Assembly (NCBI GenBank): GCA_003224055.1 | Contig: QHYE01000119.1 | Span: 1-50,440, forward strand | Length of the DNA: 50,440 nt | Origin: Acidobacteriota bacterium | Lineage (GTDB): Bacteria > Acidobacteriota > Terriglobia > Acidiferrales > UBA7541 | Reading direction: 5' to 3' | In this document: piece after piece, positions 1,773-20,058 of the stretch | Layout: each line of letters opens with the position of its first letter | Position numbering within the stretch: the stretch's first letter is position 1 | Notes under the pieces: generated by a model | Seen by the model: the letters and a program-made list of their open reading frames with translations, nothing else | The model's database searches: none | What the model was told of the DNA's origin: nothing | Translations under genes and position numbers: made by a program

Positions 1773-2238
1773 GATCAAGCGCGACGGGACGGGGGCGGCC
1801 ATCCGCGTGTTCCGTGCGGCAGACGCGGCGGCGGCGACGGCGGTCTTGAGGGAGTCGGCGGAAGCGGCGAATTGGCTGGAGAAGAGTTACGTGGAGTCGT
1901 TGGGCTGGCGCGGCGCGGTGGCGCTGGCCAGCGAAGTGGAAGGAAGGGTGACGGGATTTGTTATCGGGCGGCAGATCGCCGATGAGGGAGAAATTCTGAA
2001 TCTGGCCGTGGTGCCAGCGCGAAGACGACGGGGCGAGGGCGGGGCGCTGCTGAAAGCGGCTTTGGAGGAGTTTCGAACGCGGCGGACGAGCCGGGTGTTC
2101 CTGGAAGTTCGGGAATCCAACCACGCGGCGATCGCATTTTACGGCAAGCACGGATTTGCCGAGGCGGGGCGGCGGGCGGGGTATTATCGTGACCCGGCGG
2201 AGGCAGCGGTCCTGATGGAAAAGAAACTCGCGGGCTAG
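1762..2238 (+). CDS. rimI: ribosomal protein alanine N-acetyltransferase (RimI-like GNAT)
   Basis: This 158-residue GNAT-fold enzyme should transfer acetyl from acetyl-CoA to a protein N-terminus; RimI acts on ribosomal protein S18. The acetyl-CoA binding motif A is visible as NLAVVPARRRRGEGGALL around residues 80-97, with the R-x-x-G-x-G/A phosphate loop. The C-terminal motif B follows (SNHAAIAFYGKHGF, about 120-133), then the usual YY...DA-like stretch. The ATG at 1762 is chosen because it starts the domain and overlaps the end of tsaB by 11 nt. The name rests on domain and neighbour; another GNAT substrate cannot be excluded. Confidence 0.85.
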   Translation: MEAEIKRDGTGAAIRVFRAADAAAATAVLRESAEAANWLEKSYVESLGWRGAVALASEVEGRVTGFVIGRQIADEGEILNLAVVPARRRRGEGGALLKAALEEFRTRRTSRVFLEVRESNHAAIAFYGKHGFAEAGRRAGYYRDPAEAAVLMEKKLAG

Positions 2239-2332
2239 GACGGAAACGCCACCGGTTTGCCTGTAGTGGGACAGTTGGGGAGAAGCGACATTTCGTCTAC
2301 GCCGGTGTTCGCAAGAGCTGAAGGGGCTGTGG

Positions 2333-2362
2333 CTTCCGGCCTGCCGACCACCCGCCCAGAAT
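2333..2362 (+). repeat. imperfect 30-nt direct repeat, copy 1 (upstream of globin)
   Basis: This segment matches 2938-2967 at 26 of 30 positions without gaps. The two copies flank the globin gene in the same orientation. Both read as ...SGLPTTR... in one frame, so they may be remnants of a duplicated coding segment. Confidence 0.5.
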
Positions 2363-2485
2363 CGCTGCCCGCTGTGCCCCGATGAGTGGCAAACACGTGT
2401 CCGATTTGTCCGTAACAAGTTTATCTGATTCGAGTTTGAATCTGTCTAGTTCTTCGAATACGGTTCTGGTATGCGGAGGCATATT

Positions 2486-2899
2486 ATGCAGTCAGTAGAA
2501 AAGGCCTCTCTCTACGATAGACTTGGCGGCGTCTACAGCATCGCTACGGTGGTGAACGACTTCATCGACCGCATTATGGTAGACCCGAGATTGAATGCGA
2601 ATCCCTCGGTAGACGAAGCCCATCATCGCGTACCGCCCGCAGGATTCAAGTACTTGGTGACCGAGATGGTTTGCTGGGCTACAGGCGGCCCACAAAAATA
2701 CACGGGAAGATCAATGGCGGACTCTCATGCCCATCTGAAAATTACCGCCAAGGAGTGGGAGGCGTTCCTAGACGACTTTCAGCAGACACTGAATAAGTTT
2801 GCAGTTCCCGCTAAGGAGCAAGCCGAGCTGAAAGCGATCGTCAACAGCGCGCGACCCGACATTGTCGTTGATTCTGCATTTGGGGCGGGAGTCGCCTAA
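2486..2899 (+). CDS. group 1 truncated hemoglobin
   Basis: The product is a small cytoplasmic heme protein of the 2-on-2 globin fold, likely to bind O2 or NO. The 137-residue sequence has the family start LYDRLGG near residue 9, the E-helix segment with VTEMVCWATGGPQKYTGR (about 58-75) and the proximal F8 histidine in DSHAHLKI, His81 by alignment to known family members. The B10 position usually held by Tyr (FYxR) reads FIDR here (Ile27), so the distal hydrogen bond network is probably different. ATG 2486 is preferred over 2471 because GGAGG lies at 2475-2479, six bases upstream. It stands alone between two short direct repeats. Confidence 0.88.
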   Translation: MQSVEKASLYDRLGGVYSIATVVNDFIDRIMVDPRLNANPSVDEAHHRVPPAGFKYLVTEMVCWATGGPQKYTGRSMADSHAHLKITAKEWEAFLDDFQQTLNKFAVPAKEQAELKAIVNSARPDIVVDSAFGAGVA

Positions 2900-2937
2900 G
2901 CTTTACGCCGAAGCGGCTTGGAAGTTCGGCGCCATTA

Positions 2938-2967
2938 CTTCCGGCTTGCCAACCACTCGCGCAGAAT
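2938..2967 (+). repeat. imperfect 30-nt direct repeat, copy 2 (downstream of globin)
   Basis: This is the second copy of the repeat at 2333-2362 (26 of 30 identical), placed about 40 nt past the globin stop. Confidence 0.5.
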
Positions 2968-3089
2968 ACCGCCAATGCACGGGCCAACGCTTCCACGACA
3001 GATTGATTTTTCGGTCACATGGATTGGTGTGGGCGGGTCCATTGCCCCTTGCCACCCCGATCTTCGGCTTGGCGTAAGACCAGATGGGA

Positions 3090-5762
3090 TTATGCGCGCG
3101 ACCGCGCAATCACCATGGTAATGTCATCCTGTTGTTCTTCGGCGCTGAATTGCTGGACTGCGCCAACGACTGCTTGGAGCATTGGACCTACCGGAAGATG
3201 ACAATAGGAGCGAAGAGTGTCGATTAAGCGGGACTCGCCGAACTCTTCGCCCTCGGCGCTCCGGGCTTCCGTTATTCCGTCGGTATACAGTACCAGCGTG
3301 TCTCCCGGGGCTAGCCTCACTTCCGCAACCTCACATTGCCAGTCATCAAATAGCCCCACGACCGTGCTGGTAGCATCTAGCCGCTGCACCTGGCCAATTC
3401 CAGAAGCCTGATCTTCCGCGCCCCCGCCGCCACACAGCAGTAGTGGCGGCAGATGTCCACAATTCGCGTAGCGGAGTCTGCGGCTGCAGTCGTCGTAATC
3501 CGCAAAGAAGAGAGTCGCGTAACTTGCGTCGCCTGTGTTTTCACAGAACGAGTGGTTGACAGAAGTGAGTGCGCGCCGCAGGTCGTCGACCGCCATCACG
3601 CACTGACTACGCAAGTTGGCTTGCAGATTGGCCATGAGTAGGGCGCCGGACACACCTTTGCCCGCGATATCAGCCAACACCAGCGCCAGGTGGCCTTCAC
3701 GGAGCTTCAGAAAATCGTAATAGTCCCCGCCCACTGCCCGAGCTGGGATGCAGCCGCCTATATACTCAAGCGTCTTCATCGCCGGCAACTTTTGCGGAAA
3801 AAGCCGCACTTGCACTTCCCGGGCAATCTCCATTTCGCGGCCTACGCGGCGATCCGCCTCCATCCGCTCGGCCATCTTTTCGGCAAGACGTATGTTCTCC
3901 AGAGTGATTCCCGCCTGGCCCGCCACTGAATCGAGCAAATGCTTGTCTTCGCCGGAGTAAGGCTCTTCCGAAAGCCGCTGGCCAAGCACCAGCAAGCCGA
4001 TCAATCCGTTATTGCGCCCAAGGATAGGCACCAGGCATTCCGGAGCAAGGGGCCCCAGATCGCCGGCCGCCTCGTGACTTTGTGGGACGTCCCAGGCCTT
4101 TCCGCGCTGAGCGATCTCCCTGAGCAATGGCAGCGTGGCTGGAATTGTGTACGACTCTCTGGGAAGGAAGGCTGCGCCAAAGCGGAAAGGGAACTTCGGC
4201 CGAGGCAATGCGGCTGGAGTTGTGTCGAACTCTCGGGGCACTGGTCCGAATTCCGCGACGAGATTTCCATCTCCGGATTCCAGATAACAAGCAAGGGATT
4301 TCGGATTCAGAGCACCCCTGATGTGTTTTTCCAGCAGCATCGCGAGTTCGCGGCGGTCGGTGACGGTACGCGTTTTCTCCGCCAGGTCTTGCAGGATGAC
4401 CCGCGCGTCATACGCGCTACGGAAAAAGGCGCGGTCGATGCGCGCTGTTCCGCGCTTAACCAGTGGCGCGGAAATCCACACCAATCCGACGCCAAATACA
4501 AGGCCGAGGCCCAGCACCGTATTCGAGAATGTCCCGACCAAGCCCGAAACAGCGTAGGTGAAGAGCCTAATAGCGGCGAGCCATAGGGCCAGGAGCAGAA
4601 TCGTGAAGCCGCGCTGCACCAGCACGTACCGCGCGCTGCGCCGCAACAATGCCGGAATCTCCATCACCCGGTGTTTCACCACGGCATAAGCGAACGACAG
4701 AGGATACAAGGACAACACCAGAACCAGTGCTGTGTCGAACCAAAAAGAGGGGCGATATCCTGCGAAGTCCACCGCAACGCGCTCGAGAACGATCGGCAGG
4801 ACCCCGGCAATAGTTCCCCAGAGAATCACTCGCGATTTGCGCCGCTCTTCCGAAGGGGCGGCCATAAACGAATTTTGTGCCAGGGAAAGAATGCCCAGGA
4901 CAAATAAGGCATACAGAACGAATGAGAGAATCAAGTCAGCGTTGCGAGTGCCTGCCACTTCAGCCACCACTCGCGGGAAGCTTGGATGCCCGGCCCGCAG
5001 CCCTGGAAAGACAATACATATCCCAAAGGCCAGGGCCAGCCACTTCAACCATGGGAATCGCCGATCCAGCACAGACTGGGCCGGGAACAGGGCAAAAAAG
5101 AGATAGAAGAGCGGACCGAGCATCCCACAAAAGATCGCCCGGAACGCCAGCGCGAATGCGGCCAGCGCAGGAGAAACTCCCGAGGGAATGACAGGATCGG
5201 GAGCGCCGATGAACGCGCAGAACAGCAATGCCAAGAGCCATGCCGTTGGCCCTTCCAACCTCAAGAACAAGACAGCGAATCCGACCAGAAGAAACGGAAT
5301 GGGAAATAGTCCAATGACTTGCAGAGCGGAGGATCTGGCAAGGCTTTCGCCGGCTCTGTTTAGTGATCTTTTTGTCCGAAAGACTGCATGCAGAACTAAA
5401 GGTTTGGACTCACCCGGCCGCTCTATAGTTAAGGCCACAGCGTCTCCGGGATGGCCGCGGACGTAGGATTCGTCGGAACCAATCTCGGTGCCCAGCGTAC
5501 GCCCATTGACGGCAGTTATGCGGTCGCCAGCGCGCAGTCCAGCTTGCGCCGCGGGGCTTCCTGCCACCACGTCATCAACCGAGAGCGAGTGCGTTCGCGC
5601 GTCATAGTGAGGGTTGTGGACCTGATTGAAACCGAGCTCGACATCCGGGCCTGGATAACGCACACCGTACATCCAGAGGGACCCGTAAAGGACCGCGACT
5701 GAGGCAAACACGCCAGCAAGCGCGGCGAGGAAAGGTCGGGGTAAGGCAGACCAAGGACGCAT
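3090..5762 (-). CDS. membrane PDZ-GAF-PP2C (SpoIIE/RsbU-type) serine phosphatase
   Basis: The 890-residue protein is built as an N-terminal membrane anchor (about 11-33), a PDZ domain (about 55-130, AGSPAAQAGLRAGDRITAVNG), a block of about seven hydrophobic segments (about 147-435), a GAF-like sensor region (about 455-625) and a C-terminal PP2C phosphatase (about 665-890). The PP2C metal-binding motifs are intact: GGDYYDF (678-684), ADIAGKG (697-703), TDGITEA (827-833) and DDIT (879-882). Such enzymes dephosphorylate STAS-domain anti-anti-sigma factors in partner-switching stress signalling. No STAS gene is adjacent; the nearest is at 27995. The PDZ domain on a membrane stem suggests sensing of a periplasmic peptide or misfolded protein, which is inference. 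Confidence 0.88.
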   Translation of the reverse strand: MRPWSALPRPFLAALAGVFASVAVLYGSLWMYGVRYPGPDVELGFNQVHNPHYDARTHSLSVDDVVAGSPAAQAGLRAGDRITAVNGRTLGTEIGSDESYVRGHPGDAVALTIERPGESKPLVLHAVFRTKRSLNRAGESLARSSALQVIGLFPIPFLLVGFAVLFLRLEGPTAWLLALLFCAFIGAPDPVIPSGVSPALAAFALAFRAIFCGMLGPLFYLFFALFPAQSVLDRRFPWLKWLALAFGICIVFPGLRAGHPSFPRVVAEVAGTRNADLILSFVLYALFVLGILSLAQNSFMAAPSEERRKSRVILWGTIAGVLPIVLERVAVDFAGYRPSFWFDTALVLVLSLYPLSFAYAVVKHRVMEIPALLRRSARYVLVQRGFTILLLALWLAAIRLFTYAVSGLVGTFSNTVLGLGLVFGVGLVWISAPLVKRGTARIDRAFFRSAYDARVILQDLAEKTRTVTDRRELAMLLEKHIRGALNPKSLACYLESGDGNLVAEFGPVPREFDTTPAALPRPKFPFRFGAAFLPRESYTIPATLPLLREIAQRGKAWDVPQSHEAAGDLGPLAPECLVPILGRNNGLIGLLVLGQRLSEEPYSGEDKHLLDSVAGQAGITLENIRLAEKMAERMEADRRVGREMEIAREVQVRLFPQKLPAMKTLEYIGGCIPARAVGGDYYDFLKLREGHLALVLADIAGKGVSGALLMANLQANLRSQCVMAVDDLRRALTSVNHSFCENTGDASYATLFFADYDDCSRRLRYANCGHLPPLLLCGGGGAEDQASGIGQVQRLDATSTVVGLFDDWQCEVAEVRLAPGDTLVLYTDGITEARSAEGEEFGESRLIDTLRSYCHLPVGPMLQAVVGAVQQFSAEEQQDDITMVIARSRA

Positions 5763-16264: not shown

Positions 16265-16753
16265 GCGGGCAATACTACAAGGGCATTCCTCACGAGTCTA
16301 GCATCAGACTGCCACGCAGCCGTTCGAAGTGAAAAAACCCGCAGCGCTTCCCGATACCTCCACTTGGCCGCGTAGTCGCCTCACCGGGCATCTGCCTTCC
16401 GGTTTTCGCCGCCCATTCCACTTCTGCGGTAAATACGTTAATCGGGCGTGTGGATTGCCGCGAGAGGTCCGCGGGGTCTTCCATTTTTTCCAGTTTTCTT
16501 TTCTCGGAGGGACGACCGGCACTGTGTTTACTAAAACAGTTATATGAATTCAATACCGCTGAATGCGTGGCGCCATTCCTTGCGAAACGGTCTGACAGGA
16601 TGGGCTATTGACCAAAACTATGTACATAAGTCTGCGTATAATAACTTTGGATTTGTTTGGTTATCCTAAGCCGGTTAGAGGAATCGTTCCCGCGTGTCCC
16701 GAATACGGTTGCCGGCCGATGTGCACTCTGCACACCATCTGGAGGTGGGCACC
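16265..16753. other. intergenic region upstream of the MHYT/kinase locus
   Basis: In 489 nt I see no convincing gene. A perfect TATAAT lies at 16637-16642 but the nearest TTGACC (16608-16613) is 23 nt away, too far for a standard promoter. The last 40 nt form the left copy of a direct repeat that recurs before the histidine kinase gene. Confidence 0.5.
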
Positions 16754-16766
16754 ATGGGCCAGATAG
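16712..16766 (+). repeat. duplicated leader/start segment, copy 1
   Basis: This 55-nt segment contains the ribosome site GGAGG and the ATG of the MHYT gene. It aligns without gaps to 17096-17150, which holds the ribosome site and ATG of the kinase gene, with about 10 mismatches. The second copy is listed separately. Confidence 0.7.
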
Positions 16767-17157
16767 GGGTACCTTTTGTAGGTTTTCATGATTATTACCT
16801 CGTCGTGCTCTCCATTCTAATCGCCATTTTGGCTTCCTACGTTGGGCTCGATCTAGCAGTGCACGTGACGGCTGCGAGAGGAAGAGTTCGCCACGCTTGG
16901 TTGGCGGGCGGGGTATCTCAATGGGGCTAGGGATCTGGTCGATGCACTTTGTCGGGATGCTGGCCTTTAACTTGCCTGTCCCCGTGGGCTACCGCTGGCC
17001 GACTATATTCCTGCTGCTTCTCATAGTGATTGTAACCTCCGCCGTCCCACTGTTTGTAGCCGCTCGGAAAAAGATGGGCCTCGTTCAAGCGCTGACCGGC
17101 CGGTCTGCACCTCGCGCACCGTCTGGAGGAGGGCACCATGAGCCAGACAGTGTCTAA
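16754..17157 (+). pseudogene. truncated and frameshifted MHYT-domain sensor
   Basis: MHYT domains are membrane sensor modules of transmembrane helices with repeated M-H-Y/F-T/V motifs, usually six or seven helices, often fused to signalling outputs. Here the frame from ATG 16754 gives two helices and stops (WLAGGVSQWG). Adding one base in the G-run at 16910-16913 restores ISMGLGIWSMHFVGMLAF, with one MHFV motif, and two more helices up to KKMGLVQALTG. After that the sequence leaves the family and ends at 17157, overlapping the kinase start. So only the first third of a normal MHYT region remains, in two frames. It is probably a dead N-terminus of an MHYT-PAS kinase; slippage in the G-run or a sequencing error could explain the shift alone. 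Confidence 0.7.
17096..17150 (+). repeat. duplicated leader/start segment, copy 2
   Basis: This is the second copy of the 16712-16766 segment, carrying GGAGG (17125-17129) and the kinase ATG (17138). Both genes begin with Met-x-Gln because the repeat extends past the start codon. Confidence 0.7.
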
Positions 17158-18949
17158 AACGCGCAACATCGGCGCTGACAAAGCATCGAAAGCTATCGAA
17201 GAGCGCCTGCGGTTCATCATTGACGCAATTCCCGCAATAATCTGGCGCAAGTTCCCTGACGGCTCAGCTGATTTCCTCAACCAACATTTTCGGGAATATA
17301 CGGGCCTTTCCTTAGAGGACGGACTGGGCTGGGGGTGGATGAATGCATTTCATCCTGACGACCGTTTGATGGAGGAATGGCGCGCGGCTTTGGCGGCCGG
17401 GAAACCCTTTGCGAAGGAGGCGCGTCTCCGCCGGGCCGACGGGCAGTATCGGTGGTTCCTAATTCGCGCAGTGCCGTTGCGAGACGAGCCGGGAAACATC
17501 GTCAATTGGTATGGAACGTCCATCGACATCGAAGATCTGAAAAGGGCCGAAGATCGCGTTCGGCTTGTTATCAACACAATTCCGACGATGGTCTGGACCC
17601 TTCAACCTGATGGCGCCGTTGATTTCGTCAATCAGCGTTGGCTGGACTATACGGGTCTCACTTTGGAGGAGGAAATCGAAGACCCGACAGGCCCAGTTCA
17701 TCCAGAAGATCTTCCAAGAGTCATGGAAAAGTGGCTCGTGGACGTGGCCGCTGGGGAACCCTCCGAGGATGAAATGCGTTTGCGGCGGGCTGACGGAGAA
17801 TATCGCTGGTTCCTGGTTCGCACCGCGCCGCTGCGCGACGGGCAGAGAAACTTGGTTAAGTGGTACGGGGTATCCATCGATATTGACGACCGCAAGCGAG
17901 CGGAAAGCCAATCGTGGACGCTGCTCGATGCGATCCCGCAGCAGATCTGGAGCGGCCCGGCTCACGGCACGCTTGACTATTGCAACGAACGTTGGCGCTC
18001 TTACATGGGGCTCGGGCTGCAAGAATTGCAAGGCGACGGCTGGCAGAGCATGCTTCATCCCGATGACCGGGAGCGGGTGCTAAAAGCCTGGCACGAGTCA
18101 GTGACAATGGGGACGCCTTACGAGCAAGAAGAACGCCACCGCAGAGTCGATGGAACGTACCGCTGGTTTTTGGCACGTGGCCTGCCGATGCGTGACGCGG
18201 AAGGACGCATTGTTAGGTGGTACGGGACGAACACCGATATCGAAGATCGAAAGCAGGCCGAAGAGGAGTTGCGATGCCTCTCAGGACAACTTTTGCGGTC
18301 GCAAGACGAAGAGCGACGGAGGATCGCCCGGGATTTGCACGACTCTACGGGCCAGGATCTTGTCGCTCTGGCAACGATGCTCGGTCAGCTCCGGAGTTCA
18401 ATTCCTTCGGTCGATCGAAAATCAGCTAGGCTTCTTTCCGAGTGTAAGACGTTGGCGGACAAGTGCATCCGCGATGTCCGCACACTTTCCTACGTGTTGC
18501 ACCCTCCACTGTTGGATGAGGCTGGTTTAGTTGAGGCGCTTCGTGACTATGCGGGCGGCTTCACCAAGCGAAGTGGCATCCAGGTGGAATTAGAGGTGTC
18601 ACCGCGTGTGGGACGGATGGAACGAGACGTCGAGATGGCTTTATTCCGGGTGGTACAAGAGAGCCTTACCAATATCCAGCGCCATTCCGGAAGTCAGCTA
18701 GCCAAGATACGAATTCATCGCAACTCGAATCTCACGCTGGAAATCAGCGACCTTGGCCGCGGACTCTCTGCCGGTGTACGAAGAGGCAAAGAGAGGCTCC
18801 GGTTCGAAGTTGGTGTCGGCATCCCCAGCATGCACGAGCGAGTGAAGCTGATCGGCGGGCGGCTCGAGATTGATTCCAGCAGTCACGGCACCACAGTACG
18901 CGTGACGATACCTCTAGGGGGAGACGAAAGTACGAGGAGACGAAAGTGA
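17138..18949 (+). CDS. triple-PAS sensor histidine kinase (NarX/DegS-type core)
   Basis: The 603-residue kinase has three consecutive PAS/PAC units (about 22-138, 140-257, 258-376), each with the HPDD or HPED and YRWFL signatures. A HisKA_3 dimerisation domain follows with His401 in RDLHDSTGQD, and an HATPase domain with N-box VVQESLTNIQRH (505-516) and G-box DLGRGLSAG and GVGIPSM. No transmembrane segment is present, so it is cytoplasmic unless it pairs with an MHYT partner. The PAS sensors may bind small ligands or redox cofactors. Its stop overlaps the response regulator start by 4 nt, which marks the regulator as its cognate partner. The duplicated leader suggests that it once formed part of a longer MHYT-PAS kinase. 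Confidence 0.9.
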   Translation: MSQTVSKTRNIGADKASKAIEERLRFIIDAIPAIIWRKFPDGSADFLNQHFREYTGLSLEDGLGWGWMNAFHPDDRLMEEWRAALAAGKPFAKEARLRRADGQYRWFLIRAVPLRDEPGNIVNWYGTSIDIEDLKRAEDRVRLVINTIPTMVWTLQPDGAVDFVNQRWLDYTGLTLEEEIEDPTGPVHPEDLPRVMEKWLVDVAAGEPSEDEMRLRRADGEYRWFLVRTAPLRDGQRNLVKWYGVSIDIDDRKRAESQSWTLLDAIPQQIWSGPAHGTLDYCNERWRSYMGLGLQELQGDGWQSMLHPDDRERVLKAWHESVTMGTPYEQEERHRRVDGTYRWFLARGLPMRDAEGRIVRWYGTNTDIEDRKQAEEELRCLSGQLLRSQDEERRRIARDLHDSTGQDLVALATMLGQLRSSIPSVDRKSARLLSECKTLADKCIRDVRTLSYVLHPPLLDEAGLVEALRDYAGGFTKRSGIQVELEVSPRVGRMERDVEMALFRVVQESLTNIQRHSGSQLAKIRIHRNSNLTLEISDLGRGLSAGVRRGKERLRFEVGVGIPSMHERVKLIGGRLEIDSSSHGTTVRVTIPLGGDESTRRRK

Positions 18950-19614
18950 AAAAACTTCGCATTCTAATAGCTGACGACCATGGGCTGGTGCGGCGTGGTG
19001 CGCGGGAGGTCCTCCACTCCCGACGCGGCTGGAGAGTCGTCGGCGAGGCGGCGAATGGCCGTGAGGCGGTGCGAAAGGCTAAAGAGCTGAAACCGGATGT
19101 GGCCGTAGTTGATATCGGCATGCCCGAACTGGATGGCGTCGAGGTAGCACGTCAAATCCGAGAGACTGTCCCGGAAACCAAAGTTCTTGTGCTTTCGATG
19201 CACGAGTCAGACCAGATGGTACGCCGCGCCCTGGAAGCGGGGGCTCGCGGGTACCTTTTGAAATCTGATCTCACGGAGTGCCTTGCAAAAGCCGTGCAAG
19301 CCGTTGCAGAGGGCAAGCGTTTCCTCACCCCTAAAGTATCCGAAATCGTGTTGGAGGGATTTCTCAAGACTAGTAGCTGGCATCAGCATGGGAAGCGAGC
19401 AGGCCGAACAACTCCCCGCGAGCTTGAAATCATTCGCCTCCTGGCAGAAGGGAAAACGAACAAGGAGATCGCCGCGCAGCTGGGAATCGCCGTCAGGACG
19501 GTTGAGACGCACCGAGCTAAGATCATGGTCAAGCTTGGCCTCCATTCTCTGGCCGAGATAATCCACTACGCGATGCGCCACGGGATCATCTCCGCGCCTA
19601 GCGCCGCAGAGTAA
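18946..19614 (+). CDS. NarL/FixJ-family response regulator
   Basis: The 222-residue regulator has a receiver domain (about 4-120) with acidic residues Asp10-Asp11, phospho-acceptor Asp56 in VVDIGMP, and Lys106. A LuxR-type helix-turn-helix follows (about 152-212, TPRELEIIRLLAEGKTNKEI). Phosphorylation by the overlapping kinase should switch DNA binding. The start is GTG at 18946, overlapping the kinase stop by 4 nt. No target can be read from the sequence. Confidence 0.92.
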   Translation: MKKLRILIADDHGLVRRGAREVLHSRRGWRVVGEAANGREAVRKAKELKPDVAVVDIGMPELDGVEVARQIRETVPETKVLVLSMHESDQMVRRALEAGARGYLLKSDLTECLAKAVQAVAEGKRFLTPKVSEIVLEGFLKTSSWHQHGKRAGRTTPRELEIIRLLAEGKTNKEIAAQLGIAVRTVETHRAKIMVKLGLHSLAEIIHYAMRHGIISAPSAAE

Positions 19615-19716: not shown

Positions 19717-20058
19717 TTGGCCGCGATCGGACTGTACGGTGTCACCGCCTACTCTGTTGCCCAGCGAACCAACGAAATCGGCATTCGCATGGCCCTCGGT
19801 GCCGACCGCGCGAAAGTGATTCGCCTCGTGCTGCGCGGCGCCTTCAAGCGCGTCTTACTTGGTCTGATTCTGGGCTTGCCCCTGGCAGTCGGCGCCGGGC
19901 GTTTGATCTCCGCCCAACTCTATGGCGTTTCCTCGTGGGATCCGTTCGCCCTGACCGTGGCCGCTGTCGCGCTTGCGATCTGCTCCTTTTTCGCGGCCAT
20001 AATTCCCGCAAACCGCGCAGCATCTATTTCGCCCATGAACGCCCTAAGAATCGAGTAG
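19717..20058 (+). pseudogene. C-terminal remnant of an ADOP/MacB-type ABC permease
   Basis: The reading frame gives LAAIGLYGVTAYSVAQRTNE, then a GIRMALGA motif and three more membrane segments, ending NRAASISPMNALRIE. This is the last part of FtsX/MacB-type permeases, of the duplicated-permease (ADOP) group frequent in Acidobacteriota, normally about 800 residues long. Everything upstream is missing: the sequence before about 19710 is unrelated and no in-frame ribosome site exists. It is a deletion remnant, not a functional transporter. Confidence 0.8.

Follow-up and report, generated by a model that had tools for sequence, protein, structure and literature searches.

The window, a 50,440-nt stretch of an Acidobacteriota contig, carries two joined pieces of sensor-kinase genes, probably the scar left when paralogues with a common leader and start codons but different sensors underwent an imprecise exchange or a tandem collapse. 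The 5′ piece is the head of a gene for an MHYT-PAS-kinase fusion (type A), with its promoter block, its leader and the MHYT membrane sensor up to about the middle. The 3′ piece is a complete gene for an MHYT-free PAS kinase (type B), made up of leader, three PAS domains and HisKA_3 kinase, together with its response regulator. The two are joined at an 8-nt sequence, TGACCGGC, which is possible in both MHYT coding DNA and the leader, and we propose that the MHYT stub was left as a decaying remnant that has since been frameshifted. The features are collected in Table 1.

Table 1 Features of the locus, in positions of the window
Feature	Position	Strand	Description
Scrap of divergent sigma-54-type AAA+ activator gene, 5′ end	16459..16517	-	~20 codons; similarity stops sharply at 16459
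Promoter-like block CTATGTACATAAGTCTGCGTATAATA	16618..16643	+	From the leader alignment; palindrome and -10-like TATAAT; absent before copy 2
Copy 1 of leader/start segment	16712..16766	+	That of the type A (MHYT fusion) gene; following codons match L076 and L078
MHYT gene stub	16754..17103	+	~First 116 residues; frameshift within ~16904-16925; first-frame stop 16928-16930
Junction TGACCGGCC	17093..17101	+	Left, MHYT coding sequence; right, type B leader
Copy 2 of leader/start segment	17096..17150	+	That of the type B kinase gene; without promoter block
Intact soluble sensor kinase	17138..18949	+	603 aa; three PAS, HisKA_3, HATPase_c
NarL/LuxR-type response regulator	18946..19614	+	222 aa; 4-nt overlap with the kinase stop

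A preliminary description of this DNA had reported that a segment with ribosome site and start codon occurs twice, and this was borne out. The two 55-nt copies form a direct repeat with a start-to-start distance of 384 nt, are identical at 45/55 positions (82%) and both contain GGAGG(A/T)GGGCACC-ATG. When copy 1 was compared with all 55-mers of the window (mean 14.3 matches, s.d. 3.3), copy 2 scored 45 and the next best place in the 50 kb scored 30, so the repeat is not due to chance. The start pattern was matched in 11 of 399 genomes of the class (own genome included) and not at all in the reversed control. Two matches were found only in G000, and the search showed both copies in the window's own genome. 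The matches in five of the 11 genomes (G139, G309, G273, G177 and G146), all with 3 mismatches, may be chance. A 171-nt leader query matched 6 of 89 genomes of the family (own included; E <= 0.001). Each of these places precedes a kinase of the window kinase's family, and on these grounds a widespread mobile leader or repeat element was rejected. Applied to the own genome, this query had no strong match beyond the first (next E 0.03). Copy 2 was likewise absent among the matches listed, so this search can miss 55-nt copies.

Searching with the kinase recovered 15 loci in the genome collection and 15 of 399 genomes of the class (own included) at E <= 1e-80. Contigs judged identical by their length and position were counted once (L003 = G017, L004 = G022, L005 = G047, L001 = G107), and L002 was omitted as a near-duplicate of L001. 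The comparison with complete MHYT-PAS kinase genes that had been suggested earlier was made, and in L076 (G008, G008:C147) and L078 (G116, G116:C41) MHYT, PAS and kinase are indeed fused in one frame, behind the same leader and start (type A). Behind this leader and start, L001, L003, L004 and L005 have an MHYT-free PAS kinase (type B). L006 and L099 add two further MHYT-free kinases of type B, in which the leader is reduced to its last ~25 nt. Leaderless relatives (L007-L012, L014, L015, L100, L102 and L103) were counted as neither type, and L009, L100, L102 and L103 were included in the trees as rows. In none of the loci examined did a separate kinase follow an intact MHYT gene, the arrangement named earlier as speaking against a broken gene. 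The MHYT genes of G042 and G043 were rejected as two-gene arrangements of this kind: L035 (1.9 kb) is without a kinase frame, and L039 (3.1 kb) has receiver-domain frames and no kinase (domains judged by eye).

Two observations were made in passing among these loci. In G043, at L039:1038-1847 (- strand), the MHYT sequence is split between frames and followed by the receiver-domain frames, perhaps another decaying MHYT gene. L002 (AV19, binned as Verrucomicrobia) is nearly identical to L001 (AA84, Acidobacteria gp2) over 2000-3120 (1.1 kb compared by eye), which probably reflects a misbinned contig.

The DNA around the two copies of the leader differs. The codons downstream of copy 1 read MGQIGVPFVGFHD against MSQTGAPLVGSYD in type A, with a GxPxVGxxD pattern that matches both L076 and L078, and the sequence continues into MHYT with 241/351 nt identical to L076. 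Similarity to the MHYT of relatives ends at ~17103, at '..ALTG'. The leader similarity of copy 2 starts at 17093, and the DNA to the left of this position is MHYT coding. The stretch common to the full leaders extends from ~TGACCGGCC as far as the start codon. At the junction, the MHYT gene of L010 reads CTGACCGGCAGC and the leader of L003 reads GTGACCGGCCG; the 8-nt sequence is common to the leaders and to the L010 MHYT coding sequence at this place, and the MHYT codons of L076 and L078 have less in common with the leader than those of L010. Because copy 1 has the promoter block and type A codons, and copy 2 is flanked by MHYT and lacks the block, the window is a type A head (promoter block, leader and MHYT to ...ALTG) followed by a whole type B gene, entered from inside its leader. 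It had been suggested that two related leaders recombined. Recombination at one of them agrees with our alignments, and the other half of the suggestion does not, as the junction is MHYT-to-leader and not leader-to-leader. Among the relatives, neither two whole genes in tandem nor the same junction turned up, so a tandem deletion or a cassette exchange may have been the route.

The MHYT frame opens at ATG 16754 and reaches its in-frame stop at 16928-16930. The second part lies in a different frame, open until a stop at 17155-17157, 20 nt inside the kinase gene. Both parts match the Pfam MHYT profile (PF03707) of the sensor domain above its cut-off of 21 bits, with 24.2 bits (16754-16927) and 66.4 bits (16855-17157). 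Together they correspond to residues 1-116 of the 611-aa fusion of G008 (L076). According to PMC11347149, a full MHYT domain is ~200 residues long, with seven helices and three motifs in a single open frame; in the regulator CoxC, it senses CO with copper, and TM4 is at 103-125. With ~116 residues and a frameshift, the window's MHYT falls short of that definition. Placed by the CoxC layout (PMC11347149), the stub would retain about three of the seven helices and one of the three motifs. The earlier claim of a frameshifted MHYT gene without its last helices was thus confirmed, with the domain ending about halfway.

Since so few helices and a single motif are left in a broken frame, the stub is unlike a working sensor, and we interpret it as a presumably non-functional remnant. 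Window-private changes in the stub were distributed over the codon positions as 10/12/22, compared with 8/6/12 for L076 and 13/5/24 for L078 (Fisher p 0.23 for second positions). A clear relaxation of constraint was not seen in this comparison with L076 and L078; therefore, decay set in recently or the test lacks power.

Slipped-strand phase variation is expected to have a homopolymer tract of ~7 or more at the shift. The G-run at 16910-16913 consists of 4 G, and the window contains 209 G or C runs of four, 32 of five, 8 of six and 1 of seven. MHYT is also truncated in either frame. The earlier idea that this run could act as a phase switch is therefore unsupported.

Downstream of the junction the kinase gene is whole. 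The kinase, with HisKA_3 and HATPase_c domains and an adjacent Response_reg-GerE protein, is a HisKA_3-type sensor kinase with a NarL/LuxR-type regulator. It is 80% identical to L001 over 593 aa. In best segments, its identity is 80% to L001, 81% to L003, 80% to L004, 71% to L005 and 83% to L006; L099 is 62% identical overall and 81% over the PAS part. The kinase is soluble and has its own start site, which supports the earlier view of a cytoplasmic kinase with a fresh start. In the kinase-domain tree its sister is L013 (99/98, 13 rows), a partial row on a long branch that spans a broken frame; measured by path and identity, L003 (81%) has a nearer kinase domain than L013. The regulator tree places the window in a seven-row set with L013, L076, L078, L001, L100 and L102 against L005, L099 and L103 (100/99, 10 rows). 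These trees tie the 3′ half of the window to no particular type A locus. We infer the order of events, and the trees do not settle it: in the PAS tree L078 and L103 sit on long branches, and many of the remaining forks are open.

A divergent gene for a sigma-54-type activator stands before the leader and is longer than the window's scrap in L001, L002, L004, L076 (where it ends at the contig end) and L078. No such gene was found in the sequence examined of the L003, L005, L006 and L099 loci. In DNA, 48 nt of the window's scrap are 87.5% identical to L076 (blastn), and tblastn gave 65% over 20 aa (E 0.008). For all five relatives searched (L001, L004, L013, L076 and L078), the best DNA match begins at 16459. 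At L013, ~55 codons of the activator gene remain. There, promoter DNA is joined directly to the HisKA_3 region (L013:2200-3775), the kinase frame is broken and the sensor half is gone, and the adjacent regulator is whole. With the sigma-54 scrap and the L013 kinase without its sensor half, the neighbourhood of the stub is a decaying one. Separately, a second MHYT-coding stretch of L078 (6592-7338; 57% to L076) lies past the sigma-54 gene and on the opposite strand, which places the activator of G116 between two MHYT sequences.

The preliminary description took the kinase to be the former output half of this very MHYT gene, its sensor cut off by recombination between two leaders. We consider this quite unlikely. 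The leader does stand before both pieces, and intact MHYT-PAS-kinase fusions exist behind it, but the MHYT-free kinases with the leader or its last ~25 nt form a family of their own, present in six distinct relatives, and the fusions stand separately behind the same leader. In the tree of its first two PAS domains, the window kinase falls with L001, L006 and L099 (98/98, 9 rows), to which it is 81-82% identical, and L078 and L103 are long branches there. The PAS part of type A is distant from it (L078 39% over 272 aligned positions, L076 26% over 182). The place of the junction also argues against a cut between leaders. As the window has a type A head in front of a type B gene that is whole, this MHYT probably never had the kinase as its output half.

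An imprecise exchange or collapse also accounts for the stub better than two other possibilities do. The stub could encode a small functional membrane protein whose translation is coupled to that of the kinase, with the frameshift a sequencing error or a low-rate switch. The 20-nt overlap of the second MHYT frame with the kinase gene resembles coupling, the codon-position changes are without clear relaxation, and single-domain MHYT proteins are mentioned in PMC11347149. Set against this are the helices and motifs that, by comparison with that source, are missing, and a G-run of a length that is common in the window. Furthermore, the stub had no tblastn match at E <= 1 in the 11 related loci that lack MHYT fusions; a short MHYT gene is therefore absent from the sequence examined of those loci. 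On balance a working stub seems improbable. Finally, the contig may join two strains or two paralogous loci in error; 13 of the 15 named relatives are metagenome assemblies and the own genome is in 136 contigs. Such an artefact is very unlikely, as the longest exact word common to copies 1 and 2 is 10 nt, which would be too short to mislead usual de Bruijn assembly, and the homology at the junction is ~8 nt. The sigma-54 scrap and L013 are other breaks at this locus, though they come from assemblies too.

By eye, the promoter-like block CTAYGTACRTRARTCTGnGTATAATA can be recognised clearly in the window, L001, L005, L013, L076 and L078, and L003 and L004 deviate from it. It had one match in the own genome at <=3 mismatches and none in the reversed control. 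Scanning 16450-17200 for the sigma-70 consensus gave no promoter, either in the conserved block or within the stub, so we infer the label 'promoter' from conservation. The palindrome and TATAAT could be a binding site of the family's own NarL-type regulator. The transcript would most likely start at the block of copy 1 and read through the stub into the kinase, which would be translated from its own ribosome site. A structured RNA leader was rejected on folding stability: the 8 leaders folded no more stably than shuffled sequences (mononucleotide-shuffle z -1.6 to +1.0).

The window resembles the MHYT-PAS-histidine kinase fusions (PF03707 N-terminal; L076 and L078) in promoter block, leader, start codons and ~first 116 MHYT residues. 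The fusions have a full-length MHYT in frame with PAS and kinase, whereas the MHYT of the window stops at ..ALTG and is frameshifted. It also resembles the MHYT-free multi-PAS kinases (L001, L003, L004, L005, L006 and L099), which are 62-83% identical to its kinase and have the leader or its last ~25 nt; unlike the window, they show no MHYT piece in the locus sequence examined. Domain shuffling of two-component sensor kinases is known, and here too different sensor modules stand before one kinase/regulator output. In the window, a sensor that was only half replaced can still be seen, with the shared leader marking the joint. The window is a further example of this shuffling, ordinary in kind, and an unusually legible intermediate. 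It offers a snapshot of a sensor kinase changing its input, with half an MHYT membrane sensor before a soluble-PAS kinase and the same leader on both. Caution is needed in annotation: the stub should not be entered as a sensor, nor the G-run as a switch.

Where the divergent sigma-54 gene marks the locus, L076 and L078 carry an MHYT-PAS sensor, and L001 and L004 one with PAS alone. A wider reading, tentative and in our judgement rather doubtful, is that sensor modules are exchanged as wholes while the shared promoter-leader-start block on one side and the kinase domain on the other stay constant, the window being one exchange half done. If true, the leader would be a recombination joint besides a regulatory region.

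Some minor observations concern the kinase and regulator genes. Viral contigs scanned with the regulator gave one distant match. Directly after the regulator, at 19717-20058 of the window, lies the C-terminal piece of an FtsX-like ABC permease (family judged by eye), apparently without its front part. Elsewhere in the own genome (L104:3457-7390), two adjacent kinase genes share a nearly identical kinase-domain protein stretch (by eye), the second being partly N.
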